Below, in pieces: positions 4,688 to 52,234 of a DNA stretch of 64,000 nucleotides (the stretch's first letter is position 1; every line of letters starts with the position of its first letter). Under the pieces are notes generated by a model. The model worked only from the letters and a program-made list of their open reading frames with translations. It was not told where the DNA came from and did not search any database. The DNA comes from Flammulina velutipes (lineage: Eukaryota > Basidiomycota > Agaricomycetes > Agaricales > Physalacriaceae): NCBI GenBank assembly GCA_011800155.1, contig CM022373.1:2790001-2854000 (forward strand). The letters run 5' to 3'. The translations under genes and the position numbers were made by a program.

Positions 4688-5175
4688 CTTGGTGGTGGAA
4701 GAGTAAGCAGAGAGGGCGAGATCAAGTTGCTTCCGTCTCACTTTTAGCCAAGTTCGCCGAAGCTCAGGGGTATTTTCGCGCGATCGACTGGATTAGCACT
4801 CTGCGTCTGAAAGCGAAGCATACATTGGGATGGATGACGATATGAAAGGTGACGCTGGCGACTTTATCCAGCCAAAGTTCCAAAACTGGGCACTGCACAA
4901 CAGAGAGACATGAATACGCTAGCACCAGGACAATATCGGCAGTCGTAGATAGCTCAGATTTAGCCACACTAACGAGAACAAGAATGTTTCAATAGTAGAC
5001 TGAGGTTTCGCAGCTGACGTCCATACCCGAGACCTGGCCCTCCCAACGCCACACAAGGTTGCACCAGGCTGCGAATAACGTTCTAGAAATCATTAGTACA
5101 CGTACAGTCTACTATAGAGAACAAGATACACACATAGTATTACAACAAGTGTCTGGACCCAATTGTAACTGCTCG
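4688..5175. other. Intergenic: C2H2-gene promoter side and FAD-gene 3' flank
   Basis: No convincing coding sequence was seen here. The part next to 4687 must hold the promoter and 5' UTR of the zinc-finger gene, which is transcribed leftward. The part next to 5176 must hold the 3' UTR of the FAD monooxygenase gene. No repeat or RNA gene was recognised. Confidence 0.5.
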
Positions 5176-26097: not shown

Positions 26098-26526
26098 GGA
26101 ACAGATGGTGCGGACACCATCTATTTTCCTTGGTAGGGGATATAGAGGCGTTATATAGGCCAAAATTTTAAATTTTGTTAAGATTCATTGTCAGCCGCCT
26201 ATATAGCGGGCAGTCAGAGCACCCGCCAACATAGCGGGTGGAAAACGGAAAAGCAGATACGAGTCAGGTGGGAGCACGTGACCAGTCACGTGACGGAGCA
26301 CGTCCAAAACCAATCAAAGAGAAGACTGGTTGCCAGGCATAACAGCATTTGAGGTCAAGGAAGGGCAAGCTTGTGTACATCAGGAAAACCCCTTCTGGCA
26401 TTAATGAACTTATAAGTCTTATAGACGCCTATAAGCTATAAAAGCCAAGAAGACGTCAAAGTATCTATAGACTTGGTTCAGCAATACAGACACTTTTAAG
26501 TATTTATAATAGTATCTAAGTGCTTT
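26098..26526. other. Gypsy-1 3' tail and flank, no gene
   Basis: It contains a purine-rich stretch near 26132-26148, two CCCGCC/AGCGGG palindromes (26195-26210 and 26222-26238) and an 18-bp palindrome of two CACGTG boxes. No coding signal was seen. Confidence 0.45.
26275..26292. promoter_or_regulatory. Perfect palindrome with two CACGTG boxes
   Basis: CACGTGAC-CA-GTCACGTG. CACGTG is the E-box/CDE1 type site bound by bHLH factors in fungi. Its place just past Gypsy-1 pol could be a retained LTR promoter part, but this is inference. Confidence 0.35.
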
Positions 26527-26529
26527 AAA

Positions 26530-27045
26530 CATGTTTACGAGAGCTTTAGATGTGCTTGTGAGAGCTTTAGATGTGCTTGCGAGAGCTTTAGATGTGCTTG
26601 CGAGAGCTTTAGATGTGCTTGCGGGAGCTTTGAATAAGTCTACGGGGGCTCTGGATGTGTCTACGGGAGCTTTGAATGTACTTACGGAAGCTTTGAATGT
26701 ACTTACGGGAGCTCTGGATGTACTTACGGGAGCTCTGAATGTGTCTACGAGAGCTTTGAATAAGTCTACGGGAGCTTTGAATGTACTTACGGGAGCTCTG
26801 GATGTACTTACAGGAGCTCTGGATGTACTTACGGGAGCTCTGGATGTGTCTACGAGAGCTTTGAATAAGTCTACGGGAGCTTTGAATGTACTTACGGGAG
26901 CTCTGGATGTACTTACGGGAGCTCTGGATGTGTCTACGAGAGCTTTGAATAAGTCCACGGGAGCTCTGGATGTGTCTACGGGAGCTCTGGATGTGTCTAC
27001 GGGAGCTTTGAATGTACTTACGGGAGCTTTAAATAAGTCTATCAG
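26530..27045. repeat. 21-bp minisatellite, about 24 units
   Basis: The unit is close to ACGGGAGCTCTGGATGTACTT, with T/C and TTGAAT/CTGGAT variants and a recurring AATAAGTCT subtype. The unit length is a multiple of three, so the block is open in frames on both strands (180 codons plus, 214 codons minus). The units fade into diverged copies on both sides. Confidence 0.9.
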
Positions 27046-27296
27046 ACTAAGGTATATATGCAAGAGCTTATAGATACTTGGTGACAGCTTTCAATGTCTA
27101 TATAAGAGCTTTCAAAAGTTTTATAGTTAGTAAGAGTTTCAGTCAACGAGATCAAACTGAATTAAAATTAGAATTGTTCAAGACGAACACAGCATGAACA
27201 ACTACCAGCATATAAAGTAAACAACTAAGGAACTAAACGAAGGTAAATATACATGATAATTAATAGCTAGTATAGTAGAGCAAAGGAATGAAAGAA

Positions 27297-29493: not shown

Positions 29494-31281
29494 TTACAGT
29501 AAAGTAGGGAAATAGTCCAAAGATTCTTTCCAACGCCCCAGCCTTTCCTTTTTGTGAGCAAGAAGCTCTTCCGGTGTCATGCTGGCCTCTAAATCCTCCT
29601 CAGTTTGAAGGCCGTTGAATACCCATCGAAATAGCCCCCCCGCAGAGTATGTAGTGAACGAATAGCGTTCTTCATCCTGCATTATCTCTGCATTCGAATG
29701 TACCAGCAGCGCTGAAGGAAGGAAAATTGAGCAGCCGGGAGGGAACTCGATAGCAATTCCCAATTCCCACAGTACCAAGTGACCGCCCTTTTTCGGATCA
29801 TACTTTCCGATAGCATGGACTACGCACCAACCAAACGGCAGGTTATGGGCGTCGACGTGGTCGTTGGTGACGCTCTGTGGTCCGTAGTTAACTGTTGCTG
29901 CCGCAAAGGGCGTATTGATGAACGGGGGTTTCAAAGTTTTATCATGCTGGAGAACCACTTCGGCTACATCTGCGTATAACTTGTGCATCCTGGGATTATA
30001 CAGTTTGAAGAGGTCTGTGGGAAACAGGTCAACCAGCAATACATAGTACCAACAACAGACGACGCACTGTCGTTGTGGCCCGCCACACGAATGAAATCGG
30101 CATCCCCTAGTAAGTCGTCCATCACCTTCTGGTTCGTCTGAGAGAGGGCGCATTTGCTGGGTTCCTAGAGGGTTTGTTAGATGGCGGCGAGACTCTATTG
30201 GAGAGAAACAAACTTCAGTTCCACCGCCGTGCCCATATCCGCTGGCCATGACGGGGAAGCGGCCGCGGGGATGGTATTTCTGCTTCTTCGTAAAACGCGC
30301 CCGTTGGCGCGCAAGGCGAATCTTTTCACCCATCCGCTGATTCATTGGCTGCCAACCATCGTCGCGAGGTGGCGCACCCAAAAGGATGAATGTGCGGCCG
30401 TTGCAGTCCTGAATTGGGTGGCTGTCCACTCCAGGCCAAGGTAGGATCTGGATATTGGCTGCCTTGAGGTCAGCGAGTGAACGGCGGACAGGCATGAACC
30501 ACTGGTTCTTCCCCACCCACGCACCCGTAGCAGCCGGAAGATTTCCAACGTCGAAGCCTTCCACCGCCTGTACCTGCGCCTCCTTCATGCGTTTCACTGC
30601 TATCGCCTTCAATCCTCCTGTCTCCTTCCTCGTTACCTGCCTCTCCGCGCGGCGCTTCTCTCTCTTCTTCTCTTTTTGCAACTTCTTTTCCTGAGTCGTT
30701 TTTGGCCGGCGCGCCTTGCGTTTCGTGGAAGTCCTTTGCGAGTCAGGTGCCGGGACAATTCCCGTGAGATCCGATAACGCCTCCGTGGATGGCGTGCTGG
30801 TGGACGACGCCGTAGAGGCCAAGACGGGAACTACGCGAGACGCAGTGGACGGAGAGAAAGCAGGTAGCGGCCGAATGAAACACTCGCGAGTTTTCTTCGG
30901 CCGCTTGCCAGCTTTTGGGATGTTTTGGACAGGCCAGTCTGCTGGAATCTTGCGGTCGGAACAAGCGTCGGATTCCTCGCCCTTGCGCTGGTCCTCACGG
31001 ATGCGAGATAGTTTGCTACGTTTGCCAGGGCGCCGGATCTCGTTTTCACTGGGGACGTATTCGTCAGCTGAGGGATCGGGATCAGATTGAGCCTCGTCGA
31101 TGTCAGATAATTCTGTCAAGTCAGAGAGAGGATCCTCGTAGCTCGCAGTGTGGGGTGCCGCGAGAGGATGGTCGTCGTCAAGGTTTCCGCATGCCAGTCT
31201 CTGCTGGGCGCGTTGGAGATAGAAATTGATGTCAACGGAGAGGGTGATGGGTTTTCCGGAGCCCACGAGCTGGTCGTTCAT
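29494..31281 (-). CDS. TET/JBP-like Fe(II)/2-oxoglutarate dioxygenase
   Basis: Three exons with two short introns (49 nt with donor GTTTGT and 35 nt with donor GTACTATG) give about 567 residues from ATG 31281. The N-terminal half is disordered and highly basic (KRKARRP, KLQKEKKREKRRAERQ). The C-terminal catalytic domain holds the metal-binding HxD in DHVDAHNLPFGWC (spliced residue about 447), a distal His in ALLVHSNAEI, and the 2-oxoglutarate-binding Arg in ERYSF, followed by AGGLFRW. This signature is that of the TET/JBP-like family expanded in mushrooms, whose relatives oxidise 5-methylcytosine in DNA. Fungal copies are often linked to transposons. GTAAGT donors upstream (about 31333 and 31585) point to 5' UTR exons. 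Confidence 0.8.
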   Translation of the reverse strand: MNDQLVGSGKPITLSVDINFYLQRAQQRLACGNLDDDHPLAAPHTASYEDPLSDLTELSDIDEAQSDPDPSADEYVPSENEIRRPGKRSKLSRIREDQRKGEESDACSDRKIPADWPVQNIPKAGKRPKKTRECFIRPLPAFSPSTASRVVPVLASTASSTSTPSTEALSDLTGIVPAPDSQRTSTKRKARRPKTTQEKKLQKEKKREKRRAERQVTRKETGGLKAIAVKRMKEAQVQAVEGFDVGNLPAATGAWVGKNQWFMPVRRSLADLKAANIQILPWPGVDSHPIQDCNGRTFILLGAPPRDDGWQPMNQRMGEKIRLARQRARFTKKQKYHPRGRFPVMASGYGHGGGTEVCFSPIESRRHLTNPLGTQQMRPLSDEPEGDGRLTRGCRFHSCGGPQRQCVVCCWYYVLLVDLFPTDLFKLYNPRMHKLYADVAEVVLQHDKTLKPPFINTPFAAATVNYGPQSVTNDHVDAHNLPFGWCVVHAIGKYDPKKGGHLVLWELGIAIEFPPGCSIFLPSALLVHSNAEIMQDEERYSFTTYSAGGLFRWVFNGLQTEEDLEASMTPEELLAHKKERLGRWKESLDYFPTLL

Positions 31282-33108: not shown

Positions 33109-33899
33109 TATAGATCTCTTAACGAGTCTGAGTTCGTTGTGATGTTGAGGGGACTACCCGGTGGATTCCTGCTCTTGTTCTGGCGCACCGAGGTCGCAGA
33201 CCTTGGTAGGTGAAGAAGTCGGGCAGCGAGCTGTCGCAGATGACGGTTGCGCTTCCAAGTACGCGTTCGTCGAAGTACTAACGCGTGCGCGAAAGTATAG
33301 GTTCCAAAAGTCTCTCGACAGTTGCAAGGGGCTTCTGTGTTGATATTGTGGGGTGATAATTCTATATATGTGTTTCTACGACATGCTACAGTATTTATAC
33401 TGTACGCTGTCGGCTTTCTCTTCCGTCTAGTTCTACGCTTAGGCCTCTCGATGCCTGCGTCATGTACCCTGATCGAGCGATCGTGCGACGATCCGGGGTT
33501 TGAGTCCGTGATGTGATTGGCGTTCCGTCGCGTCGAGTCAGACCACCTCGCGATATGACTCTTCGAGGGTGGTAATTCTCTCCGTTCCTGTCGGCTTTGG
33601 CATCCAGATTCCCGAAGGTGCCTGGGCGCCATGCATGGCGCACAGCCTTGGTGTAATCTCTTCCCATCGATCTGGATCTTCTCGTTATCGATCGTTGCAA
33701 TCCATCGATTAGTTCGGTAGCTTCCGTGTTATGAAACGTCCATGCTTGTGCCGTGTGAAGTGCTGCGCCATATGTTCCTAATGCGGACGCGCTGTGGATG
33801 GCGCGTTCACACGTTCCGACCTATATGGCGCTGGTGCCGTCGTGCGCCACACCCATGTTTAGTATCAGTTCTGCACTCAGCCCAAGTGCAGGCTGTACA
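33109..33899 (-). repeat. Gypsy-2 3' LTR (791 bp)
   Basis: In element orientation it begins TGTACAGCC and ends GATCTATA. It is not the usual TG...CA pair at the right end, but the boundary is supported by the second LTR, the target duplication and the relic at 15569. A cluster of GGCGCGTTCAC/TGGCGCCGTCG words lies in the outer 100 bp. Confidence 0.9.
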
Positions 33900-33912
33900 T
33901 CTCCCCCCAACT
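33900..33912 (-). promoter_or_regulatory. Gypsy-2 polypurine tract
   Basis: AGTTGGGGGGAGA on the minus strand ends right at the 3' LTR, the position expected for the plus-strand DNA primer. Confidence 0.75.
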
Positions 33913-34037
33913 TGAATGTGAACTCCTCCATGGTGTGAAATCGGCGAATTTGTCCTAACCCGTGAGTCCGCGCCATAAATGTCGCAAGGATTTGGCTCCG
34001 TCTTCCATTCGGTAATTCCTGTGGCGAGGGGTGGCAC

Positions 34038-34044
34038 TATAAAG
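34038..34044 (+). promoter_or_regulatory. TATA box of antisense gene A
   Basis: TATAAAG lies 76-82 nt before the ATG at 34120, with a CAAGCCCCAAAGCC leader between. Its position supports plus-strand transcription from inside Gypsy-2. Confidence 0.55.
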
Positions 34045-34119
34045 AGGGCCGCGCGGATAGGAAAATTTCCCAGCCAACGCTACCATCTCAAGCCCCAAAG
34101 CCTGAAAAAAATTTCCACC

Positions 34120-35281
34120 ATGTCCAACACTCCCAACGCCGCTTCTTCCCCAATCGAGAACCCAGTCGTTCAGCAGCGCTACGATGAGCTTGACCGTCTC
34201 ATCAAATGCGCCCTTAGCACTGTCAAGGCGCATGAACATTTTGGCTTGGAGCTGTCCCCTAGGCAGCTTGAGGACTACCTCTCCATCTTCCGCAGCCAAT
34301 ATGCAAGTCCCTTCTCTCGACTCATCTTCTCCTCCTTCCTAACCATTTCCCAGGCGGACGTTCGCGAGCTGAACGCAGCCCTTTTGCTGCTGGTCATCCC
34401 CACTTGGATTGCACCGCTCTCGACGTCCTCGCTCAGCGCCAGCTCACCCAAATCGTGAACTTCATGTGGAGCCACCGTATCTTCCTTTTGATCGTAAACA
34501 ATCCCAGGTGGGATTTGGATGCAGAGGCGCTGTCGCAGCGTGCGCAGGATAGCACGCGTCTCCGCTGTCTCTGTGGATGGGGGTGCATTCCCGACGTGCA
34601 GGAACGTCCTCCTTCGCTTAGGAACCGCCCGTTGTCCCACCCGGCGTCGGGTACGTCGTCCTTCGAGCCAGTCGCAGCCTTCATGACCTCCGTTGTCCAG
34701 AATCGAGCGGTCTCTTCCTCAGCCGTCGACAATTGGCGATCCTCAGTCAGGCCGTCGGTCAGGCCGTCGCATCTTCCATCTCGTCCCCTCCAATCTCCGC
34801 CCCCACTCCCCCGCTACAGTCCTACTCCCAGAGTCGCGTTTACCCAGCGCATAACCAGGTCAGGGAGGGTCGAGGACCCCGAGATCCAGTACTTGGGTCG
34901 ACGGCGCCAGAGCCATGGGGGCGACCAGCGCGCACGTCGGGGTCCCGGAGAGACCTAGGAGCGCGCCTTCCGGCTCGACACACCTCGCCTCCAACTACTC
35001 TTCCAACCTCCCGGGCCACCGGGGCCAATGCACTTGTGGCGCCTTCGACTACAGGGGGTTCTTCCCGACTCCTGTCCCCACTCGCGTACCATCCTACCAG
35101 TCCTCCCCCTTGGAGTCCCGTTCCGGGAGTGGTCGCGGACGACAACGCCATTCCGCCCCTCTTGGACGTCCAAACTAGCGATTCCACTCGCGAATCCATG
35201 AGCGAAAGTGATGACGAGGGGGCGGAATACAGGGACCATGCCGATTATGTCAAAAAGGAGTTTGACGTCGACTTAGAGTAG
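34120..35281 (+). CDS. Gypsy-2 antisense cargo gene A, unknown function
   Basis: Three exons keep frame: 34120-34306, 34354-34650 and 34701-35281 (354 residues). The start has a good context (CCACCATGT) behind a TATA box. The second intron has a clear GTACGT donor. The first donor could be GT at 34307 or the stronger GC site at 34303, and only the former keeps the long frame. The N-terminal 65 residues look helical (YDELDRLIKCALSTVKAHEHFGLELS). The middle has LTQIVNFMWSHRIFLLI and a CLCGWGCIPD cysteine patch. The rest is Pro/Ser/Arg-rich and ends in an acidic tail (SESDDEGAEYRDHADY). I do not recognise it. It is transcribed opposite to gag-pol, in the space between pol and the 3' LTR. Confidence 0.65.
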
Positions 35282-35816
35282 TGGTTTTCCTGTTTGTTGT
35301 CGTGTAGGTTCGCGCCCGTAGTTTGAAAGCGAATGCAGTTGATGTATCCTATTTTTCCGAAGTTTTTCCAGTGTACGCGCCTCGGCTCCGTTCCCTTCGC
35401 GTCCTTCCTCCTCGTGTTCGTGATTATAAGCGTGAGTTGCCGATCCCATCCATCAATCTTGTCCAAGTTTGGTATAGTTCGCGCGACGACCAATTCCTTT
35501 CCCTGGCCGCGTGTCCCAGAAAGGCAAGTGCGTCATCACTACCCTTCATCAGTGCAGGCTGTGCAACGCAATGATCGTCCCGTGTCCAGAGTACGCGGTG
35601 GTATGTTCTTGTCCAGTTTCGGGTACTTGGCTTCCAATGTCGGGAGTTCTCCGTGCTTCGATTCCAGTAAGCTTTGGTGTCCGATCCTCTTCTTTGGCAG
35701 ATTTCCCTTGATAGAGTTCGTCGGCATCTTCCGATTCGTTGGACGCGTTTGAACCCTGGTCCAACGTTCCACTTAAATCCGCCACGCGTAACTTCGTCCT
35801 GTAAAGTCATAGTACA
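35282..35816. other. Spacer between antisense genes A and B
   Basis: No supported coding sequence. It should contain the terminator of gene A and promoter of gene B. Short frames on both strands lack motifs. Confidence 0.4.
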
Positions 35817-36616
35817 ATGTCGTCGACCAGCTTCAATGTATCCTTTTCGTTTCCGTTAGACGGCGAGCGTGCGCAACGACTAGTAGAGAATAGTCTGGAG
35901 TTGGTTTGGCAGGGGTCCTCCGAGATTCCCAATCGTTTTCCTCTTCTGTACGGCGAATGGGTACGTCCAATTTTTCGTTTCTTTTTGGTAGGTCCATCGA
36001 GCCGTGTTCATCGCGTGTAGGTGGCGATGACCCAAGGTTTGTCCAATGTCCAAATTGCCGAAGTCATACACCATCCCGCCTTCGATTCGGTTCGCGCTGC
36101 CCTGCAGCTTGCGAGCCATTCGTACGACACCACCGTTATGTTCTCCATGAACCGGTTCCCCTTTCACCTCCTACGACAACCCTTCTGTTTTTCCCCCATT
36201 CCGTCCACCGTCGCGTCCGCTGGGTCCTGGCCCCTCCCAACCGGTTGGTCCTGCTGGGTCGTAGAGAACGTCCTTCAGGCCCCGACCCGAACGGTCTCCC
36301 CGCCTTCTCACCCCCGTGCGTTCTCCTTTCTTCCTTCTCTATTCCTTGCATCCTGATAGTCCAATTAGTCCCTGGTTCCCCCCATCATCGCCTAACTCGC
36401 AGCCTGTCGTATACGCCAAACTCCTGGTTCGACGAGGGAGCCGACGTCCTATCCCAATACGTCGTCGACCTTTGCCACCGCGCCGATCGCGTCGAGGCCA
36501 TCTCCCAGCATCTCCGGGCTACTGCCCAATCCCTCCGCGAGCTCGAGGCTCAATCCCATTCTTCCTCCCTCCACCTCTCCGACCTCCTCCAGTTCCGGCC
36601 CTCCGAGGCCCCGTAG
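35817..36616 (+). CDS. Gypsy-2 antisense cargo gene B, unknown function
   Basis: Exon 1 35817-35960 starts MSSTSFNVSFSFPLDGERAQ and ends with a GTACGT donor. Exon 2 starts at 36021 in phase (VAMTQGLSNVQIAEVIHHPAF ... SYDTTVMFSMNRFPFHLL). The last exon, probably from about 36406 after a CGCAG acceptor, encodes WFDEGADVLSQYVVDLCHRADRV and a short coiled coil ending at 36616 (AISQHLRATAQSLRELE). The exact end of exon 2 is not settled. Parts read like an ordinary soluble protein, not random sequence, but I recognise no domain. It lies in the same orientation as gene A, opposite to gag-pol, so the pair may be expressed on its own. Confidence 0.5.
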
Positions 36617-37316
36617 TTCCGTGCCGTTTGATGGGAGTCCGGTAGACATATTTGGGTATCGTGGCGTCGTATTTAGATTATTTTGATTTTCCTTATTTCG
36701 TAGTATTTTCCCCGTATAATTCGATACCGCTGTTCCGAATTGTGTGTGACTAGGATTTTCCGTTAATCCTTGCGTTTCCCATTACGCTGAAGTCCAGGTT
36801 TCTTTTGCATCCGGCGTGTTTAGGCGGTGTTGCCCTTCCTGGTCCGGTACCATAGCAAGTCCAGCTAGGAGATCGTTGGCGTCCCTCCGATCTTCCCTTC
36901 CAGGCACACTGAGTGGCTAATCCAGTGGCTCCAAGAATTGCTATAGGTGCAATTGTTACCGCGCTACCTCGGTGGCGCACGCGATCTCCAAAAGATATCT
37001 TGTGTTTTCCGCGTATGGTGATAGGTATAGGTCCATGTCGTTCATGGGTGGTTCGATCGATCGCCTGTTGGTGTCTTTCGCAGGTAGGTTGTGTTAGGTA
37101 GATTGTTCGGTGGTAGTGGCGCCTGGTCGTAATTCGGTCCCGATGTTTAACGAATGACGTGCCACTGTATTGTAGGTACACATGTGGGTTATTATATCGA
37201 TTCGAGATTCGATAGTCCTTCCCCCAACAAAAAATTTGTCTTGATCTTGATTTTCCAGATTTTATCTCCGTGCGCCAGAAATGGCGCTCCCCCCAACTTG
37301 TTGAAAAACTCCCATT
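36617..37316. other. Non-coding interval between antisense gene B and pol 3' end
   Basis: About 700 bp where the two opposing transcription units of Gypsy-2 converge. No gene or repeat was recognised. It is T/G-rich and may contain terminators for both strands. Confidence 0.4.
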
Positions 37317-40300
37317 TTACTCCCCTTTCTCGTCACTCTCCATTAAGCGCTTCGTCTCCTCCTCAGTCAAAGCTCCCGTGTAGTACCAAGGCAATGATAT
37401 CCGCTCCCGCGCCAGATATTTCATGACACGTCGCGCCGCTACCGTGTTAGCGAGTCTTGTGCCAGATAGTTCGCAAAGCTGGTAGGCGCCTCCTTTCGTC
37501 CTGAATAGTACCACAAGGGGTCCAAAGTAGCGGGCTTGCATCTTGTCTTGAAGTCCTTTTCGTCCTTTAGAATTTTCCAGTAGTACGAGATCGCCACGTT
37601 TGAAATCGAAATCCACAACTCGGTTTTGGTGTTCCTTCTCCCAACGCTTTGCGGCGTCCACTCTAGACTTCCAAACGTCTTCTTTCAGCTTCTCCATCTC
37701 CTTCTCCCTGTTCCATAAATCCATGGCTCTTTGCACGATGACATCACCGTGGGAAACTATACCACTGAACGGCGTAGTTAACCAGGTTGCTTGCACAAAG
37801 TCCAGAGGTAGCAGAGGTTCCGCTCCTGTCGCAGCTCGGTAGGGGCTCATGTGCATAACACGGGAGATAGTAACTCTCTCTGCCCACATCATGGCGAATG
37901 TCCCTTCCGACCACTTGGATTCGTTTCCTTTGGCTAATTTGAATAGACCCTCCCGAACATCGTAATGCCTGTTTTCGATGATACCGTTTGCCTGAGAGTT
38001 GTAGCCAGAAATCCTGATGTGTTTCACTCCGTATTGTCGGGATAGTCGGTCCATTGCAGCAATAAACGCTTGCCCATTATCCGTCACGATTTCCCTAAGC
38101 GATCCCCATCGACATATGAGCTCCTCAAATATGAAAGCTGCCAGAGTGTTTTCGTTCTCCTTCCTGAGCATCCGGAATTCGGGGTACGCCGTTAGAGAAC
38201 ACCTCGCGTGTACGAAGTATTTGAAACCGTTTGAAGGTGGCATGAAAAAGGTGTCGATATATGCTTTCGCAAACAAAGGTGCTGGTTCCGCTACGACCGG
38301 TGGAATATGCCAGTGCTGCGTGCGTCGCAGCTGACACTCGTGACATGTCGATAGATACCACTTGATGTCGTTCAACAGTCCCGGCCACCAGAATCGAATC
38401 TGTACGGTATGGCGGACTGAGAACGTTCCTTTGTGTCCCAATCTGTCATGCGCCGATCGTAAAATCCCAAGTCGAGCTGGTGGCTTGACCACTAGTTGAT
38501 GCTTCCCGTTTTCCATCCTGCGCCACAGGTCACTTTCCCTTCGAAAGAAACCCGTTGCGTATTTGATGAACCTCTTCCTCTCCTTCTCTCCCATCCTCTC
38601 CGGTATTTCCAATTTATCCAAGAAACGCAGGATTTGCACAAGGCGCTCATCCTGCGCCATATGTTTCTTCGACCTGGGAATCTCCGGTGTGGCGTCTGGC
38701 TGGATGTTCGGATTTAACTCGTCGTACGAGTAGTCCGGGACTTCCACCAGCTCCCTCAACAGTACCTCACAAACGGTTGCTTCAGGTTCCACGTGCGCCG
38801 ACGCTATTACCTGAAGGAAACCGTAATGCCTATCCACCCAATCTTCGTCGTCCTCCTCCAACTCCTCTCCAGGAAACGGTCGCCGACGAGATAGACCATC
38901 TACCCCGTGACGAATCCCCGGAACGTGTACCAGCTTGAAGGTAAATAGCAGGACACCTGCGACCCATCGGTTTATTGTGGCGTTCGGGTTCAGATCAGGA
39001 TTGTTGATCATTCCCTTAATAGCTGTGGCGTCCACTTCTACGACCAGATTCCTAGCTCCGATGATGTACATGGATACCGCTTTCAGAGCCCTGTAGAGTC
39101 CGTATAACTCCAGTTTTGGCTGACTGTAGTTGGTTTCCCTGGGGTTCAATGCCATAGATCCAAAACGGTTTGGGTACCGCAAGCGTGCGTCCTCTTCGTC
39201 TTCCTGGAAGAGAGCGTAGCCAATCGCGATAACGCTTGAATCTACGCATAGAATTATAGGTGCGCCCGAGTGGTAGTCCAAAGGGCGCAATGCAGGTGAA
39301 CTTAGCATCGCGGCTTTCAGCTCGTCCTGCGCCTCCTGTTGTTCTGGTCCCCAATAGAATTCGGCATCCTTCTTCGTCAAGTCCACTAGAGGCCTAGATA
39401 AACCCGCGAAGTTCCATATGAACACCCTCATGAGGCCCACGGTCCCCATGAATGCTCGTACATCCGTGAGGTCCCTGCATGGTCCCCAGTTCCTCACCTT
39501 CTCCATCTTCGTTTCGTCGGGTTCCCTCCCTGCGTAGGTACACTTGTGTCCAACAAGCATGGCTTCTGGAACGCAAAGGAAAGCCTTTTTCCCGCTCCAA
39601 GTACATCCAATGTACCAAATCCTCTGGACGATCCGTCCGAGCGCCTGAAAATGCTCCCAAACGAATCTCCGTATCCCCTCGTTTCCTTCAATCGTCTCGT
39701 ACCCTCCGTCCTTGGTCTCGTATCTTGTAGGTGGTCCTCGAATACCTGCGTCATCCATAAAAGGTATTGTGAATTCCGGTATTTCGTCCTGCAGTGCGTA
39801 GGTGACGTCCCCATGTAAAATGGGTACACTATTCGTCCATCCCATTGGTAGCTTCGTGAGTCGAAAGGTGCCTAACGGTGTCTGGAAAGTCGTATAATCC
39901 CTAGACGGCTGCGCAAGTCCTCTTTGATCGAACGCCACAAAGAGATCCAGAACTCCATAACATGCGCGCCCAGCAAATGACTCCGCCAGCGTTTCGACGA
40001 ACGGTAACATCCCACTATCGCGTATAGTGACCGCGTTCAGAGGCTGTAGGTCGTGTACAATCCGCAAGGATTTCCCGTCCTTCTTGAGTACCGTGAACCA
40101 GCGCGATCGGTAGGAAGAGCTTGATGGCTCGTACGCTCCGGACGCGACCTTCTCCCTAACGATGCGAATGACTTCGTCGTATATCCCAGGTGGTATCGGC
40201 ATGTTCCTATTGACCCAAGGAATATGTTCTGTTATTCCCATGTTTACCGGCGGGAAGAAGTCTTCCCGAAAGTGTCCTTTTTCCGTTTCGTCCCAAGCGA

Positions 40301-40607
40301 ATCCTTTTTCGTGTAGCGCCATAAAGTGATGCATCAACTTCCTCTCTTCTGGCCAGAGAAATCCCTCGGGATGCAAGTCGTCGATGATCTTTTTCCTTTC
40401 CAGAGTGTATCGTCCCCGTGGCTCGAAGTGTGGCGGGCGCACGGGTAGTACGGGTAAGGTTTCCAGAGGGTTCCCCACGATGTTCCTGACTATCCTGAAG
40501 TCCTCTGGTAGAGTGGTGGCGACTGGTTTGATCCTGTTCGCGACCTTTTTGTATTTCTTTCCTGCAAACACAGCGACCGGCGCTTTCGTATCCAATATCA
40601 CAGCCAT
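37317..40607 (-). CDS. pol: Gypsy-2 Pol (reverse transcriptase, RNase H, integrase)
   Basis: An uninterrupted frame of 1,096 codons from the first credible ATG (40607), which overlaps the stop of the preceding frame by 10 nt. RT: LRIVHDLQPLNAVTIRD, LPMGWTNSVP and the catalytic FMDD near residue 283 (the first position is Phe, not the usual Tyr). RNase H begins ILCVDSSVIAIG around 455. The integrase HHCC finger is HDRLGHKG...CHECQ (about 754), with catalytic residues in IDTFFM (784), VTDNGQ (842) and IIENRHYD (878). The C-terminal part has KRGDLVLLENS and YQLCELSG, a typical DNA-binding GPY/F-like region. No chromodomain is seen. The intact frame suggests the element is or was recently active. 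Confidence 0.93.
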   Translation of the reverse strand: MAVILDTKAPVAVFAGKKYKKVANRIKPVATTLPEDFRIVRNIVGNPLETLPVLPVRPPHFEPRGRYTLERKKIIDDLHPEGFLWPEERKLMHHFMALHEKGFAWDETEKGHFREDFFPPVNMGITEHIPWVNRNMPIPPGIYDEVIRIVREKVASGAYEPSSSSYRSRWFTVLKKDGKSLRIVHDLQPLNAVTIRDSGMLPFVETLAESFAGRACYGVLDLFVAFDQRGLAQPSRDYTTFQTPLGTFRLTKLPMGWTNSVPILHGDVTYALQDEIPEFTIPFMDDAGIRGPPTRYETKDGGYETIEGNEGIRRFVWEHFQALGRIVQRIWYIGCTWSGKKAFLCVPEAMLVGHKCTYAGREPDETKMEKVRNWGPCRDLTDVRAFMGTVGLMRVFIWNFAGLSRPLVDLTKKDAEFYWGPEQQEAQDELKAAMLSSPALRPLDYHSGAPIILCVDSSVIAIGYALFQEDEEDARLRYPNRFGSMALNPRETNYSQPKLELYGLYRALKAVSMYIIGARNLVVEVDATAIKGMINNPDLNPNATINRWVAGVLLFTFKLVHVPGIRHGVDGLSRRRPFPGEELEEDDEDWVDRHYGFLQVIASAHVEPEATVCEVLLRELVEVPDYSYDELNPNIQPDATPEIPRSKKHMAQDERLVQILRFLDKLEIPERMGEKERKRFIKYATGFFRRESDLWRRMENGKHQLVVKPPARLGILRSAHDRLGHKGTFSVRHTVQIRFWWPGLLNDIKWYLSTCHECQLRRTQHWHIPPVVAEPAPLFAKAYIDTFFMPPSNGFKYFVHARCSLTAYPEFRMLRKENENTLAAFIFEELICRWGSLREIVTDNGQAFIAAMDRLSRQYGVKHIRISGYNSQANGIIENRHYDVREGLFKLAKGNESKWSEGTFAMMWAERVTISRVMHMSPYRAATGAEPLLPLDFVQATWLTTPFSGIVSHGDVIVQRAMDLWNREKEMEKLKEDVWKSRVDAAKRWEKEHQNRVVDFDFKRGDLVLLENSKGRKGLQDKMQARYFGPLVVLFRTKGGAYQLCELSGTRLANTVAARRVMKYLARERISLPWYYTGALTEEETKRLMESDEKGE

Positions 40608-40939
40608 TCCACCCCTTCCATGACTTCGCGCCTTTGGAACTCCCAATGGACGCGATGAGTCGCTTTTGGCGGGGTACAAGTGTCCGCGTAGAGCGCCGCA
40701 GCCAGAACGAATGCCTTCTGCGCCAATGTTGCTGCGCCATCCGTCTGTACGGCCTCTTCCAATACTTCCCCTGTAAATCCTGAAATAGATATTCCGTATC
40801 CTGGTATACTTTCCCAATCTTCGAAGGTTTGTGGTCCTTCCAGAAGCTTTCCGATGTGAGGTGTCCTAGATCCAATGCCGTTCCTGTGTGTAACCGTTAT
40901 AACAAGCCCTGTTTGTTCGTCTTCTTGCATAATCATCAT
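40598..40939 (-). CDS. Gypsy-2 linking frame between protease and Pol
   Basis: A frame of 113 codons starting ATGATG right over the protease stop (ATGA overlap at 40939-40936) and ending TGA 10 nt into Pol. The protein contains GLVITVTHRNGIG, FEDWESIPGYGISISGF and AQKAFVLAAALYAD. Gypsy-1 has a comparable segment fused to the start of its Pol. It may be the N-terminal Pol linker made by frameshifting or a separate small protein made by re-initiation. Function unknown. Confidence 0.55.
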   Translation of the reverse strand: MMIMQEDEQTGLVITVTHRNGIGSRTPHIGKLLEGPQTFEDWESIPGYGISISGFTGEVLEEAVQTDGAATLAQKAFVLAAALYADTCTPPKATHRVHWEFQRREVMEGVEWL

Positions 40940-42396
40940 TGGTCGTGTGTGTTGGCGCGAGCCGTATGAATATGTGGTGAGTCCAATTCGTGTTCCCGTG
41001 GTGCAGAGAATCTCGGTACGCCTTTCTTATGCGTCGGAATTGCTATTGTCCGTTCCGAGTTAGGGTCCCTGAGAGTAATGGTTTGTTTTCCGTCGATGTA
41101 GTTCCTTGTAACACTTTCGGTAAGTACGCCGAAAGGTCGTCCTAGTAGAATGTCGTAGGCGACTCCTCGTAGAACGTGGACTTGCAAGAATATCGTAAGG
41201 TCGTTTCCGATAGTGAAAGGTACGTTCCGGCAAACCCCCAGTGCAGACTCAACACCTTTGTTGGCAGACTGGACTTGAATTCGTGTTGAGGTGTCCAATG
41301 GCAGTCCGACGTGCTCCCACACTTCTTCTGACATTGCCACTAGTTGCGCCCCTTCGTCCAAGATTGCTTCCACCTCGTACTTGTGATCGATCACCGGAGT
41401 GATCGCGCGTAAAGCCAGACTTTCCGCGCCGACGATCACCCCTTGGTCCGCGAGTGATTGATAGAATGCGTCGATCAATTCCCCCGCTTCCACGGATTCC
41501 AAGTTTTCCTCCGAGAGCGGTTCCTCGTCATCGTCCTCGATGGCGAGCATTCCCGTTTGCGCCACATCTTGTAATATCCTCCGGTTTGATACCACTTCCT
41601 TGATGCGTTTCCTAATCTCCGGTGCTACGGCCAGTAAGTCTTTGTTCGACAAAGTGGACGATCCTCCTAGTATAGTGTCGAAGACCCTATCGCTAGATTC
41701 CTTTTCGTTCAGGCCCGGTCCTAATTGGGTACGATATTGTTGATCGTCGGCCCGAAAAGGGTTCCTTGATCCGATCTGCGGATTTCCTTTTTGCTGAACC
41801 TGTTGTGGCTTAGGTGCTGATGGAGCGGCAGTGACGGTAGGCTTCGTCTGCTGCGCTTGTTTAGGCAAGACGTATCCTGGTGGAAGGTTCGGTCCGGGCG
41901 CTGCATCGTGAGCTGCCTTGGGGTCCACCCCAAATGGAGGTTTCTTCCACGTCGTCTTTGGTATCTCTACTCCTCGAAATGCCATTCGTTTGCCTGGCGG
42001 CATTGGCGGTCCTTTGTAGTTGTTTCCCGGCCCCGTGTTTTCCTTCTGGTTAAGGTTCAACGTAGCGTTCCAAAACTGTTCAGGTTGTTCGGTGATAATC
42101 TCGTTGCTGAGAAAGGTGGAGGAAGGCGGTATCCTCGATCCTCCTCCCCCTGGTCGAGTCACTTCCAGTAGGAAAGCCTTCCCTTCTGGTTGTCCCGTTG
42201 GTTTGAGATGCGGATTTTTCAGGTTCCACTGCACGATACGGTCGTACAGCGATCCTTCTCCCTTGGGAAGTCCCTGGATCCGTCCCATAACGTGGTCCTT
42301 CCACCTGGAGAGATCAAGACTACTTTGTCTTCGACCGCTTTCCGATGTACTGGACAAACGTTCCAGCTCCTGCATTCGGTTCCTCCGCAGAAACAT
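40936..42396 (-). CDS. Gypsy-2 protease region
   Basis: 486 codons from an ATG at 42396 that lies inside the end of gag in another frame. The first 60 residues overlap the Gag knuckle region. A Pro/Gln-rich linker follows. The aspartic protease core contains VEAILDEGAQLVAM, where Glu-Gly replaces the usual Ser/Thr-Gly after the catalytic Asp, and then YDILLGRPFGVL. DEG instead of DSG/DTG is uncommon and could reflect a divergent retropepsin. The stop overlaps the next ATG (ATGA). No nonsense codon is present. Confidence 0.75.
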   Translation of the reverse strand: MFLRRNRMQELERLSSTSESGRRQSSLDLSRWKDHVMGRIQGLPKGEGSLYDRIVQWNLKNPHLKPTGQPEGKAFLLEVTRPGGGGSRIPPSSTFLSNEIITEQPEQFWNATLNLNQKENTGPGNNYKGPPMPPGKRMAFRGVEIPKTTWKKPPFGVDPKAAHDAAPGPNLPPGYVLPKQAQQTKPTVTAAPSAPKPQQVQQKGNPQIGSRNPFRADDQQYRTQLGPGLNEKESSDRVFDTILGGSSTLSNKDLLAVAPEIRKRIKEVVSNRRILQDVAQTGMLAIEDDDEEPLSEENLESVEAGELIDAFYQSLADQGVIVGAESLALRAITPVIDHKYEVEAILDEGAQLVAMSEEVWEHVGLPLDTSTRIQVQSANKGVESALGVCRNVPFTIGNDLTIFLQVHVLRGVAYDILLGRPFGVLTESVTRNYIDGKQTITLRDPNSERTIAIPTHKKGVPRFSAPREHELDSPHIHTARANTHDQ

Positions 42397-43256
42397 CTAG
42401 GTTGGAACTGATTTCGCCTGGTTGATTCCTCGAACCTTTGCGTACTCGTGGATTTCACGTTTCCGCCGTTTGCTGGTAGGTTCCTTTGTGGTTGTGGTCC
42501 TTGAGCGTTACCTGGTCCATTCTTGTTCTGTCCCGTCGATACTCCTTGTAGAGTCAGCGCTTGTAGTACCGCTTGTACCACAGCCGCTGGTTCAAATCCT
42601 TCGATTTTGACGCTATGTTCTTTTACGCCCGCTTTCTGGTTGGCGATAAACGTAGAAGTGCCAGTGAGACAGAACTCAGATGCTGATATGAGGTCGGCGA
42701 GCTTATGAGGCCTAGTCGGAGGATGGTCTGGGAATTTGATTTCCAAGCGCCTCTTAACCATTCCTTTCAAGGCTTCTCCCAAGCCGCGCTCGAACAGGCG
42801 CGCGAGCTCGGGGTCCGAAACCGCACTCTCTTCCTTGAGAGCTAACCCAATCCTCTCGAATGTCCGCGTATATTCTCCTAGGGTGTGTAGGTCCTGAGGT
42901 GGCGCCAGATGGCGCTGGTCCGATGCGTCCTGTAAGTCCGATAATTCGTATCGTCCTTTCTCCCTTGCTCCTGGGTACTTGTTGAGCACCGCCTGTACGA
43001 AGGCGTCCCATGTTGCCTTGGTTATGACTCCTAGCGCGGATGTCACATCCTTTGCTTCTGGGATACGGCGCCAGTACTCTCGTGCTTCTGCTGGTAGATA
43101 GTACAGGGCGTACTGGATCCAGTCCGCGTCGTCCTTCTTCCCATGTTCCACACAAAGGTTTTTCACGTCTTCAAGGTAGTCCATCAGGTCTTTCGGATTT
43201 TCCGTAAAGGAGGGGGCGCTTTTGTTTCCCCTTCCCGGCATCGTTTTGTTAGACAT
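42219..43256 (-). CDS. gag: Gypsy-2 Gag
   Basis: The first in-frame ATG is at 43256 (MSNKTMPGRGN), giving 345 residues. The frame is open upstream for at least 110 codons without an ATG and with protein-like Pro/Thr-rich sequence, as in Gypsy-1. The Gag core shows YLEDVKNLCVEHGKKDDADW, YLPAEAREYWRRI, ATWDAFVQAVLNKYPGA and LGEYTRTFERIG. A cysteine segment CFCGGTECRSWNVC near the C-terminus replaces a classical CCHC knuckle and lacks the normal His spacing. It overlaps the protease frame by 178 nt. Confidence 0.8.
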   Translation of the reverse strand: MSNKTMPGRGNKSAPSFTENPKDLMDYLEDVKNLCVEHGKKDDADWIQYALYYLPAEAREYWRRIPEAKDVTSALGVITKATWDAFVQAVLNKYPGAREKGRYELSDLQDASDQRHLAPPQDLHTLGEYTRTFERIGLALKEESAVSDPELARLFERGLGEALKGMVKRRLEIKFPDHPPTRPHKLADLISASEFCLTGTSTFIANQKAGVKEHSVKIEGFEPAAVVQAVLQALTLQGVSTGQNKNGPGNAQGPQPQRNLPANGGNVKSTSTQRFEESTRRNQFQPRCFCGGTECRSWNVCPVHRKAVEDKVVLISPGGRTTLWDGSRDFPREKDRCTTVSCSGT

Positions 43257-43664
43257 GTTGGGTGTAGGTGTATTGTTGGTTGGTGGGTTGGTAGGTGTAT
43301 TGGTAGGCGCGGGGTTGTCTCCTCGGCCTTGGTTTCTGGCTTGATGCGCCAGGAATGGATTTGTAGGTGGAATTGTTGTTCCAGGTGGTCTCGCGGTCGT
43401 GGGTACCGTGAAGTCGAAGGGTTGTAAGGTGAGGGCAGTAAAGTCGATGTCCAAATCTTCTTGTACCGGAGTCAACGGGTTTACTGGCTCTCCTCTGTCC
43501 TCGGGGTCTTCGGTTGTACGAACTTTCTTCGCGAATCTACCGCTGCTCTCTCTCGGCCTCTTTCCTCCAGCCAGAGTCCGACCCTCGGTTGATTCCTAGA
43601 CTCCTTTGTCTCGCGACGACAAGGAAAGTGTTCGGAAGAACAAATGGGATCCTTGTTGTAGTAT

Positions 43665-43683
43665 CCCCTCGCGGTGGGCTCCA
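43665..43683 (-). promoter_or_regulatory. Gypsy-2 primer-binding site
   Basis: TGGAGCCCACCGCGAGGGG on the minus strand starts two bases after the 5' LTR. It differs from the Gypsy-1 site at one position only. Confidence 0.8.
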
Positions 43684-43685
43684 GA

Positions 43686-44476
43686 TATAGATCTCTTAAC
43701 GAGTCTGAGTTCGTTGTGATGTTGAGGGGACTACCCGGTGGATTCCTGCTCTTGTTCTGGCGCACCGAGGTCGCAGACCTTGGTAGGTGAAGAAGTCGGG
43801 CAGCGAGCTGTCGCAGATGACGGTTGCGCTTCCAAGTACGCGTTCGTCGAAGTACTAACGCGTGCGCGAAAGTATAGGTTCCAAAAGTCTCTCGACAGTT
43901 GCAAGGGGCTTCTGTGTTGATATTGTGGGGTGATAATTCTATATATGTGTTTCTACGACATGCTACAGTATTTATACTGTACGCTGTCGGCTTTCTCTTC
44001 CGTCTAGTTCTACGCTTAGGCCTCTCGATGCCTGCGTCATGTACCCTGATCGAGCGATCGTGCGACGATCCGGGGTTTGAGTCCGTGATGTGATTGGCGT
44101 TCCGTCGCGTCGAGTCAGACCACCTCGCGATATGACTCTTCGAGGGTGGTAATTCTCTCCGTTCCTGTCGGCTTTGGCATCCAGATTCCCGAAGGTGCCT
44201 GGGCGCCATGCATGGCGCACAGCCTTGGTGTAATCTCTTCCCATCGATCTGGATCTTCTCGTTATCGATCGTTGCAATCCATCGATTAGTTCGGTAGCTT
44301 CCGTGTTATGAAACGTCCATGCTTGTGCCGTGTGAAGTGCTGCGCCATATGTTCCTAATGCGGACGCGCCGTGGATGGCGCGTTCACACGTTCCGACCTA
44401 TATGGCGCTGGCGCCGTCGTGCGCCACACCCATGTTTAGTATCAGTTCTGCACTCAGCCCAAGTGCAGGCTGTACA
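43686..44476 (-). repeat. Gypsy-2 5' LTR (791 bp)
   Basis: Same length as the LTR at 33109-33899; I noticed only two differences. It is followed directly by the GGCC target duplication and the rest of the Plavaka exon. Confidence 0.9.
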
Positions 44477-47400
44477 GGCCAAGCAGGACCTGGACCTTCG
44501 ACAGAGGACAACAGGCGCGTAGCTCAGCTGATGGGGAGCAGATGTCGTATCCTGGCTGACGAAGACGACGAACGTCTGGAAGTTGAGGACGCCACGGCGG
44601 GGAAAGTCATTCGGATGGACTCGACATTACACGCTCGATGGGCTCAGATCTTTGAGACTCCTGTAGAGGATGGCTCGGGCGACGTGGAAATGGGAGATAA
44701 CTCAGGTGATGTGGAGATGGACGAAGCGGCGCACTCGGAGGGGAGAAAGGGAAATATCTACTCTCCGTTCGCTTCTGAGCTGGATTGGAGGGTGGCGCAG
44801 TGGGCGGTGAAGGATGGTATTGGACACAATTCTTTTGACCGGCTTCTGGATATCCCTGGAGTAAGTTTTTTGCTGTTACGCGCTTCAAAGATGCTGATTG
44901 CATTCAGGTGAGAGAGAAGCTGGGCCTCTCATATGACAACATCCGGGGACTTCACAAAATAGTCGATGAGATACCTGTGCGTGCGGGCAAGTGGAGAGTG
45001 AAGCGGTTTAGCTTTCCCGACCGCCCCGACGAGACGTTCTTATTACGGCACTGCGACGTCCTTGAGGCCATCCAGAGCCTTTGGGGAGATCCCTCATTGG
45101 CCGACCACCTGGTATACCGGCCGAAGAAGGTTTTTTCGAGCGCGCAGAAGGAGAGTAGAATTTACAACGAGATGTGGACAGGGCATTGGTGGTCATACAT
45201 TCAGGTGCGTCTCCTCTACAATTCTTTACCATCGGTGGTCGCTCATATTAAGATCCTTCCAGAAACGTATCACAAGAGGCCACACGGTTGCTCCCATTAT
45301 CATCGCCACCGATAAGACCCAGCTCACCCAATTCTCGGGAAGCAAACAGGCCTACCCGGTCTATCTCACTTTGGGCAACATCCCGAATCATCTCCGCCGT
45401 AAGCCCTCCCAGCAGGCATGTATCCTCCTGGCCTACCTGCCCGTCGACAAGCTTTCAAAAGGCAAGCTCAGCAAGCGAGAGGTCTCTGCGCGGTACCAGC
45501 GTCTCTTTCACGACGCCATGCGACACATCCTTCAGCCTTTGGTCTTGGCCGGAACTGAGGGTGTTGAGTTGACCAGCGGCGACGGTGCTGTGAGAGTGGT
45601 CCATCCCATCCTTGCGAGTTACGTCGCCGACTTCCCAGAGCAGTGCATGGTGACGTGCTCGAAGTACGGGACGTGCCCCAAGTGCCGTGTCTCTGCCTCA
45701 GAGCTTCAGAACGAGACTCCCGGGGAGCCACGCACGCAGGCTTGGACGACGGGGGTGATGAGGGAGGCTCGGCAGAATACATCTTCGTCGAGCAAGTATT
45801 TCCAGTACTGCATGAACGAAGAGGTTTCCGGCTACGTCTCCCGGCCTTTCTGGGAAGATCTTCCCTTCACGGACATTCACCTGAGCATCACCCCAGATGT
45901 TCTGCATCAGCTATACCAAGGAGTGCTCAAGCACCTGATAGAGTGGTGCCAGACACTTTTGACGAAGGAGGAACTCGACGCACGCATTCGTCGCTTGCCC
46001 CATGCCCTCGGACTTCGCCACTTCAAGAACGGGATCAGTGCTCTGTCACAAATCAGCGGTTCAGAACGCAAGAACATGGCAAAAATCCTACTCGGCTGTC
46101 TCGTCGGCACAAGCATGAATAACCAGGGGCTCACTGCATGCCGCGCTATCCTCGACTTCATTTATCTGGCCCAATACACCACCCATGACGAAACCACACT
46201 TGGCTATATGACAGACGCCCTCCGACTTTGGCACGCGAACAAGCAATACTTCGTTCATGTCGGTATTCGGGAAGATCTCAACATTCCCAAGTTTCATTCG
46301 CTGCTTCACTACGTCGACGCGATTCGTTTCCTAGGCGCCACCAATAACTTCAATACCGAGATGTTTGAACGTCTGCATATTGATTTTGCCAAGAAGGGAT
46401 GGAGAGCGTCGAACAAGCGAGATGAATACCCACAGATGACCCAGTGGATCTTGCGTCAGGAGAACGTCGCTATGTTCGAACGCTACGTCACATGGGTCGA
46501 TAAGCAGCGTGCGGGTAAAAAGGCATCCATATCTACCACTCCCGCCACCTCTACCACTCCTGCACTTCCCTCTTCCACTGGACCTTCGACGTCGAGAGCA
46601 CCTTTACCCACTGCCACGACGACATCGACCGCACTGCAAGCAACATTTCCAAAATCGACACCACCCACACCTGCAGCCGCCGTTTCCAGAACACCTTCGA
46701 CATCTACAACGTCGACGTCGGCTGCGGCAGCGCCAAATATGTCTGCAGCGAAAGAGAAGATTCAAATCCCGAAGTATCCTACCGCACCCAACAAGTCTGT
46801 CGCCCTCATCGAGCGACAGCACTGCGTACCCAAATTCTCTGCTCATCTGAAGGAGTATCTCAATCTTCTGAGTTCTCGATCCCGAACACAAGCAGCAGCG
46901 GCGCAATATTTTTCCCTCCCATTTGCTGGCCTCGACGTATATTATTCATTCAAATTTAGCCTGGAGGGACTCGATGAGTTGGACCGTGAGGAGCAGGATG
47001 TCGTGAAGGCTACGCCTCTTGGAGCTGGGCGGTTCGACACTGTTATCGTACTTACCGGAGACGAGGCTGAGAGCACGGGTCTTGACGGCAAGTCGTGTTT
47101 TTGTGTTTTGATTATTTTTGCTAACTTATTCTCCAGGTACACATGTGGGACGTGTTCGCGTGATATTCCAGCTACCAAAAGTTATCAAAGTAGGAGTTGG
47201 AGGAGCCTTCCCGGCACCACAAGTGTGGCCAAAAGGACCAGTGGCATACATTCAGTGGTTCAAGCCTGCTACCCTTCCGACAGGGAGTCGCAATACCCAC
47301 AATATGCCATCCGTCGAACGTGCATATCTTGCAGATCGGGAGACGCCTGCCTGGTCGATTGTTCCATTGTCCAATATTCGACAAAGTTGCATGTTGTTTC

Positions 47401-47525
47401 CAAACTTCCGGAAGTGTCAGCGGGAGGTCTGGGATACGGATGAGGATATTTTGGATGTCACGGACCACTTTTTTCTCAATAACTGGTTGAGTCTCTATAC
47501 CTACAAGACAGTGTATAAGGTTTAA

Positions 47526-51180: not shown

Positions 51181-52234
51181 GCTTCAATAGCGGGTCCCGC
51201 AACAGGAGCGGCCGCTACCATAGCGGGTTCAGTCAAGACAGACTGGGCCACCTCCACAGCGACTGGACTACCCATCCAAGTGACGGTGTGAGGAGGTGGA
51301 ACTGAAGCCGAAGGAGCGATGGGATTGGTAGTTTCGTCGAAGTCACGATCCGTGGCTAACACAGGAGCGAAGTCCAAGTGAGCAGCGAGACCCGTTGTGA
51401 TAACGCGCTCATACATGATAGGACGAGTGTCGCAGAAACGAGGGAATCGATTAGCCGCTAAGAAGCGGGGCCACCAAAGGACAAGCACCTGGTCGACGGG
51501 AGACAACTGACCCAAAGGAAGGGACAAGTTGTTCACTACATCGTAGTTGGCAACGATCCCTCCCAAGGAGTCCTCAGCTCCAAGGTGAAAACCAAGGAGA
51601 ACGGACGTCTGACAAGGATACAATTAGACCTCCGACTGGAAAGCGGGTGAACCAAACATAGGGCGAAGTCACCCAATGCCTCTTCCATCATCTTAGCAAA
51701 ATACCGCTCGGGATGACGGAAGCGGGCGGGGATGAGGTCTTCAAAGTGAAGACCATCGAGTACCACGGAACCCCGCCGCATCCCAAACCAGTTAGAAACG
51801 AGACGAAGGCAGCAGACATACAACAGAGCAATGTTGTAGGCCTGACCCGTCTTGAGGTCGGGATCTTCGATCTCCCAGATAGCCATCGAGTGAATCTATA
51901 TCTAAGTCAGAACTAGGAAAACAGGGGACAGAATGACAAAACTCACCAAACATTGAATCATGAAGCGCAAAGTGGGTGCGTCGAGCATTTCGCTCACACC
52001 CAAGGACAAGTCCTCAGTCGGGGAAGTATGAAAAGAAGAAAGATCCAAGATGTCGAAAGGTGTGGCGACGATAGGGAAGCTAAACGTAGCACGATACATC
52101 GACAAGGCCACAGCTAGACCCGCTTCAGCCTCTAAGAAACCGACGGCTTGACGGGAAAAGCGGTCAGAAAGGCCTGGGAGAAAAGCGAGCTTGAAGTTGG
52201 TCCAGGGAGGGATTAACGCAAGATTCTGCTCCAT
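51156..52234 (-). CDS. Three-exon unknown gene, 3' end replaced by a repeat arm
   Basis: Exons 52234-51947, 51895-51653 and 51608-51156 keep frame (327 residues). Start MEQNLALIPPWTNFKLAFLPG; middle AIWEIEDPDLKTGQAYNIAL, LVSNWFGMRRG and FRHPERYFAKMMEEALGDF; end Pro/Ala-rich with two palindrome-derived segments (EPAMVAAAP, GPAIEAT). The last residues LCYTDN and the stop come from the inserted repeat arm, so the native C-terminus is lost. I do not recognise the family. It lies just downstream of a Gypsy-3 pol remnant in the same direction, and contains the same short palindromes as Gypsy-1, suggesting it was cargo of such an element. Confidence 0.55.

Follow-up and report, generated by a model that had tools for sequence, protein, structure and literature searches.

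A Ty3/Gypsy retrotransposon of Flammulina velutipes, named Gypsy-2, was found to carry spliced and unspliced protein-coding genes antisense to gag-pol, in the interval between pol and the 3' LTR. The element was analyzed in a stretch of 64,000 nucleotides (the window) and in its copies in the genome. The window contains two such genes, A without introns and B with two. In half of the copies the place of B is taken by an alternative gene, B', which a sequence-only reading of the window had missed. Judged by the variants among the copies, A, B and B' were shown to be under purifying selection much as pol is. The overall explanation preferred here, with a probability of roughly 0.6 and on sequence evidence, is that of a selected antisense accessory module with an exchangeable B/B' cassette.

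Gypsy-2 and its antisense genes

The following features of Gypsy-2 were assigned in the window:

33109-44476, minus strand: Gypsy-2, Ty3/Gypsy element, between two LTRs
33109-33899, minus strand: 3' LTR, 791 bp, direct repeat with 2 differences to the 5' LTR
34038-34043, plus strand: TATA box before gene A (TATAAA, 82 bp upstream of the ATG)
34120-35281, plus strand: gene A, intronless, from alignment and translation of the copies
35751-37010 (ends approximate), plus strand: exchangeable B block of about 1.2 kb, from break points in nine B' copies and linkage
35817-35960, plus strand: gene B exon 1, N-terminus and intron position shared with B'
35961-36020, plus strand: gene B intron 1, 60 nt, GT..AG, frame-keeping
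36021-36315, plus strand: gene B exon 2
36316-36359, plus strand: gene B intron 2, 44 nt, GT..AG, frame-keeping
36360-36616, plus strand: gene B exon 3 with stop
37317-40817, minus strand: pol with reverse transcriptase, RNase H and integrase, from Pfam domains
40936-42396, minus strand: frame with aspartic protease (PF13650, E 3e-8, above cut-off)
42219-43475, minus strand: probable gag by position, the first long frame after the 5' LTR
43686-44476, minus strand: 5' LTR, direct repeat of the 3' LTR

The 2 differing positions out of 791 bore out the earlier description of the LTRs as near-identical. A candidate 4-bp target duplication, GGCC, judged by eye, flanks the element on both sides. The LTRs and the order of the pol domains (reverse transcriptase, RNase H, then integrase) place Gypsy-2 in the Ty3/Gypsy group. 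In the Pfam search of pol, RNase H and the integrase zinc-binding domain scored above cut-off and RVT_1 and rve (integrase core) below it; the probable gag frame was without a Pfam match. The pol frame of the window is open over 1166 aa, and to that extent it is intact, as had been stated. In the other long pol matches, the part that can be aligned begins at residue 47 of this frame or further on, and most of them are open over about 1236 aa; the window pol may thus have a frameshift close to its beginning. The stop of pol and the 3' LTR are separated by 3,417 bp with plus-strand coding sequence inside, in agreement with the plus-strand genes described between them over 3.4 kb.

Gypsy-2 is part of a nest spanning 15738-52273. 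A Gypsy element of the F4 family, treated below, occupies 15.7-26.4 kb and resumes at 47.8-50.4 and 51.2-52.3 kb; it is interrupted by a stretch that contains a Plavaka transposase and is in turn interrupted by Gypsy-2. The transposase ORF was located at 45062-47443 (PF18759, E 2.7e-86). A 595-aa frame of the Plavaka stretch (29494-31281, minus strand) matched Tet_JBP weakly (E 3e-4, below cut-off), and Plavaka elements with a TET/JBP gene have been reported (PMC12730594). The window also contains an array of 21-bp tandem units at 26459-27109 and, at 52740-53970 and 54310-55541, a pair of inverted copies about 1.23 kb long with 99.6% identity.

Gene A was found to have an ATG and the TATA box that had been described, and the introns ascribed to it were rejected. 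In intact copies gene A is one frame of 387 aa with no intron. The apparent introns are accounted for by two single-base frameshifts in the window copy, at about 34.38 and 34.94 kb. The 18 rows of the A alignment represented 14 different copies in which A is not split, the window included (four were fetched twice). Both frameshifts are absent from the 13 other whole copies; nine copies are open throughout, which contradicts the spliced model, and five, among them the window copy, are broken by frameshifts or stops. The four remaining copies of A are partly deleted or interrupted, bringing the totals to nine intact and nine broken or interrupted out of 18. A protein search with A gave one match, 99% identical and 434 aa long. 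Structure prediction for A from the single sequence was unusable (mean pLDDT 38.8), and PDB sequence searches with A and B' gave nothing meaningful.

Gene B has three exons and encodes 231 aa. None of the nine B copies (the window and eight others) has lost either GT..AG pair, and a length variant of 6-7 nt falls in intron 1 of L007 and L008. The window and five of the eight other copies have an intact B frame (broken in 3/9). The claim of frame-keeping introns in both genes was therefore right for B and wrong for the intronless A. B' was read in the copy L025, as a 1,997-bp block with five exons and 489 aa:

L025:3801-3923, 3999-4347, 4408-4805, 4858-5224, 5279-5511: the exons of B'

The introns of B' are 75, 60, 52 and 54 nt long and all GT..AG, and the predicted protein has a CxxC..C..CxxC..C cysteine cluster and a basic C-terminus. 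Eight of the nine B' copies were examined, and B' was in one piece in five and split in three. Splice sites are kept in all five whole copies; four of these are intact and one has an in-frame 12-bp deletion. By sequence comparison B and B' were shown to be distant homologues. A single-pair BLASTP search aligned 84 N-terminal residues at 24% identity (E 4e-6), and the position of intron 1 is common to both genes. Out of 1000 shuffles, none reached the score of the first 100 residues and one reached that of the whole proteins.

Copies, selection and the B/B' cassette

The genome (38.1 Mb, 23 contigs) was searched with the antisense region, the LTR and pol as queries. A total of 18 copies, several of them split by later insertions, were followed at least partly from pol to the 3' LTR; the copy counts are lower bounds, taken from the best-scoring candidates only. 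The genome contains further LTRs and fragments, for example a piece of B' near 2.88 Mb of contig 1. A 399-bp fragment on contig 6 (L043:4184-4582, 2881183-2881581), 91% identical to window 35590-35988, is an older remnant of the promoter and first exon of B. Gene A was matched, at least in part, in all 18 copies followed, and an antisense ORF between pol and the 3' LTR is present in most copies. Collecting the copies had been proposed as a check; the module was found across the family, and the sequences support a two-gene antisense module that is family-wide and not captured once. At least 29 genome matches of A were found, all within Gypsy-2 copies. One-time capture of a host fragment was rejected for A on these matches.

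A Ka/Ks below 1 had been proposed as a further check, and this was observed for all three antisense genes. Synonymous, nonsynonymous and stop variants numbered 29/20/2 in A (17 copies, window excluded; expected synonymous share 0.294; p 4e-5; rough omega 0.30), 26/13/0 in B' (nine copies and the tail of L003; p 3.5e-6; rough omega 0.22) and 8/4/0 in B (nine copies; p 0.008; rough omega 0.22), all p-values being indicative only on account of shared ancestry and recombination among the copies. The last 885 nt of pol, the reference for coding conservation in A, B and B', gave 22/11/1 (17 copies; p 8e-6; rough omega 0.20). The synonymous excess was absent in other frames, the exception being reverse frame -1, with p 3e-4 in A and p 7e-6 in B'; that frame has 7 stops in A and 6 in B'.

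The B block is carried by nine copies and a B' block of about 2 kb by nine others. Gypsy-2 copies are not independent of one another; L038 and L039 resemble a duplicated pair, so fewer independent members stand behind the 9:9 count. All nine B' copies leave the window sequence at 35788. Alignment with the window resumes at 36953-36980 in eight of them, and in the ninth (L026/L027) the resumption lies beyond the fetched stretch. A mosaic copy, L003, has B for 927 bp and then the end of the B' block.

For the linkage test the 18 copies were labelled B or B', the mosaic being counted as B. Five SNPs of the left edge, in 35755-35770, showed an r2 of 1.0 with the block label (a sixth, 35765, 0.38). 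SNPs of the right edge, at 36956-37000, showed an r2 of 0.76-0.79, short of 1 as the mosaic copy would predict. Outside the edges, the r2 of informative SNPs was at most 0.20 up to 35746 and at most 0.24 from 37023 on. Among SNPs with a minor count of at least 2, all four label combinations were present at 19 of 33 in the left flank and at 13 of 18 in the right flank. They were present at all 19 flank SNPs with a minor count of at least 4 and at none of six right-edge SNPs; this test covered the flanks and the right edge, and linkage of the left edge was taken from the r2 analysis. The mean r2 of 28 flank SNPs was 0.054 compared to 0.064 with permuted labels, and 959 of 2000 permutations were as high. 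From the permutations and the four-combination counts, the flanks are in linkage equilibrium with the cassette. With edge SNPs tied to the block type and the flanks fully shuffled, the behaviour of B and B' is like that of alleles in a population of recombining elements.

Fungal mating-type idiomorphs are strongly differing alternatives at one locus with shared flanks. B and B' are likewise dissimilar sequences at one place between shared flanks, with a partly homologous N-terminus. They differ from the idiomorphs in being located in a multicopy retroelement and in having retained N-terminal homology.

An even chance is given to the possibility that the dimorphism is a neutral relic, in which one illegitimate replacement by a related element was followed by drift and reshuffling of the flanks. 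The N-terminal homology and the alignable promoter edge are as expected if the donor was related, cores too dissimilar for recombination produce sharp linkage unaided, and 9:9 among 18 copies, with one pair apparently duplicated, could arise by drift. This is opposed by the purifying selection on both versions and by their coexistence for long enough that the flanks reached linkage equilibrium. B and B' substitute for each other as a cassette with the size of one transcription unit. The exchange presumably takes place by template switching between two RNAs packaged together; gene conversion among insertions would leave the same picture.

Spliced antisense genes in sister families

Two sister families, F2 (L040) and F4 (L042), have a pol which is 53-55% identical to that of Gypsy-2 in the first half and 35-38% in the second half. 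Their 3' LTRs start at L040:8801 and L042:8830 and their left LTRs are at C4:657149 and C8:814270. Each family has two antisense spliced genes, alpha and beta, between pol and the LTR. Alpha consists of seven exons and six introns with the same phases in F2 and F4, all six positions being shared, and 212 of 422 residues are identical (dN 0.44, dS 1.9, omega 0.23). Beta consists of four exons and three introns at the same places, all three shared, and 150 of 335 residues are identical (dN 0.58, dS saturated, omega about 0.12). These values were obtained by the Nei-Gojobori method from one copy read per family. The F4 alpha copy contains an in-frame stop, and the acceptor of F2 beta exon 2 was chosen with F4 in view. 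Of the four donors tried for F4 beta intron 3, three preserve the frame, and the 64-nt intron was adopted.

The first antisense ATG is located 221 bp from the LTR in Gypsy-2, 226 bp in F2 and 228 bp in F4. A motif scan found TTAAAT at -44 of B and at -62 of B', and TATA-like motifs were seen by eye before alpha and beta. No similarity between A and alpha was detected. Similarity of B' and F4 beta is marginal, the score being reached by 4 of 1000 shuffles, and for the other three pairs of B or B' with beta by 31, 40 and 605 of 1000; HHalign of B and B' with beta gave an E of 0.058 at best, and homology is not claimed. The layout is shared between the families, and the genes in Gypsy-2 may not be homologous to alpha and beta.

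Some further sequences of the sister families were observed. A remnant of antisense beta is present in the window copy of F4 (51249-52228, minus strand; C6:2841249-2842228). F3 (L041) is a relative of F2 with other sequence inserted downstream. The sister families also have an accessory frame in sense orientation after pol (L040:3599-4507, L042:2549-4681), which is P/S/K-rich with a CxxC..CxxC-like cluster; Gypsy-2 has no long sense frame there.

The proposal that introns persist in an element copied through RNA was supported by the introns of B and by those conserved in the sister families. The introns of B and B' would survive replication by being antisense to the genomic RNA and unrecognised there. 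It is very improbable that the genes are chance frames with chance splice signals and functionless. The dinucleotides GT and AG occur frequently and A is disrupted in the window, but the synonymous excess in A, B and B' is frame-specific and every intron position of alpha and beta is common to two families. It is also improbable that the antisense RNA and not the protein matters, by forming dsRNA with the genomic RNA and tuning silencing or copy number, with the frames incidental. The antisense genes do converge on the end of pol, and such a possible role of antisense transcripts is discussed for plant elements in PMC7264820. The synonymous excess, the kept splice sites and the conserved proteins and introns of the sister families argue against an RNA role of this kind, although both roles could coexist.

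Origin, possible role and known systems

Weak relatives of B' were found outside the element, near the ends of contig 4 (E 6.7e-7 and 1.4e-5) and on contigs 3 and 23 (E 0.05 and 0.2). Re-scored in the small set of fetched stretches, they gave E values of 3e-12, 1e-11, 2e-8 and 5e-7. The low-copy relatives are:

L044:1972-2885 and L045:1804-2458: B' relatives near the ends of contig 4
L046:2437-2898 and L047:2352-2675: B' relatives on contigs 3 and 23

The cysteine cluster is kept in the first two, L046 and L047 are 96% alike over 797 bp, and the stretches contain no pol match of note (best E 6.4). The resemblance of B' to low-copy sequences near contig ends would suit captured host genes carried as passengers, useful to the host or to nobody. 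This origin is considered unlikely in view of the restriction of all A matches to Gypsy-2, the selection within the family and the antisense pairs of the sister families. No relatives outside the genome were found for spliced B' or F2 beta in the collection searched, which may contain few spliced fungal proteins. Scoring covered the best 7,997 candidates by shared words in two of the three protein searches for relatives.

Pfam scans of A, B' and the alpha and beta frames, and of B as unspliced frames only, gave no family naming a function. No TRP28 domain and no bZIP domain was found in these scans, B again being covered as unspliced frames.

The HBZ transcript of HTLV-1 is spliced; it is antisense, begins in the 3' LTR and encodes a bZIP protein. 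HBZ resembles the Gypsy-2 genes in being an antisense, spliced gene near the 3' LTR of a retroelement. It differs by its bZIP, of which none was found in Gypsy-2, and gene A has its TATA box outside the LTR.

Under the preferred reading Gypsy-2 would carry its two-gene accessory module antisense to gag-pol with each gene driven by its own TATA-type promoter. The proteins would be nuclear accessory regulators, with a role like that of the antisense protein of maize Grande, which is also nuclear; this is the likeliest role, but taken alone this step is somewhat doubtful. A more far-reaching possibility, put forward only tentatively, is that of an old two-gene antisense module in a fungal Gypsy clade, with introns protected by orientation and with B and B' as selectively kept alternatives passing like alleles, for instance as specificity determinants escaping a restraint set by host or element.

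Antisense accessory genes as such are known. The sequence-only reading had referred to a few plant LTR elements, correctly for plants, and had suggested that such a module could be undescribed in fungi. Boty, a fungal Gypsy element, has an antisense gene, brtn, according to PMC7264820; the brtn paper, Zhao et al. 2011, is cited by title in PMC8365987. Boty-like elements of Botrytis cinerea are similar to Gypsy-2 in having an antisense gene between pol and the 3' LTR. Their host is an ascomycete, and Gypsy-2 adds a second antisense gene, introns in one, an alternative second gene and spliced pairs in sister families; it is set apart from brtn by description.

Plant antisense ORFs between pol and the 3' LTR are described for maize Grande (GENE23), rice RIRE2, Silene Retand and bean PvRetro13 (PMC7264820, PMC11963269). 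Place, orientation and presence in most copies are as in Gypsy-2, and an own promoter has been proposed in plants, with transcription from it shown for Grande; in Gypsy-2 the promoter evidence consists of TATA-like motifs. The plant ORFs named in these sources are single, and TRP28 or SMC domains are named for them, none of which were found in the Gypsy-2 scans. Antisense coding regions are reported in all Retand clusters in PMC11963269, which also names the HTLV-1 antisense gene HBZ; the word 'intron' is absent from its main text. Rotifer elements have extra ORFs expressed from spliced messages (PMC5408684), and in the text of the Laccaria paper (PMC3411680) the word 'antisense' does not occur. 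The literature searched, which included few subscription papers, contained no intron-bearing antisense genes in a fungal LTR element and no alternative antisense cassettes. Three features appear to be new: the conservation of the introns, the layout with two genes and the exchangeable cassette.

Introns usually indicate that a sequence has not passed through RNA, and here they persist in elements copied through RNA. With up to six introns per gene at positions common to two families, the antisense strand appears to be a stable home for spliced genes. Gypsy-2 offers a fungal system for antisense accessory genes, with near-identical elements which differ mainly in the accessory protein encoded.
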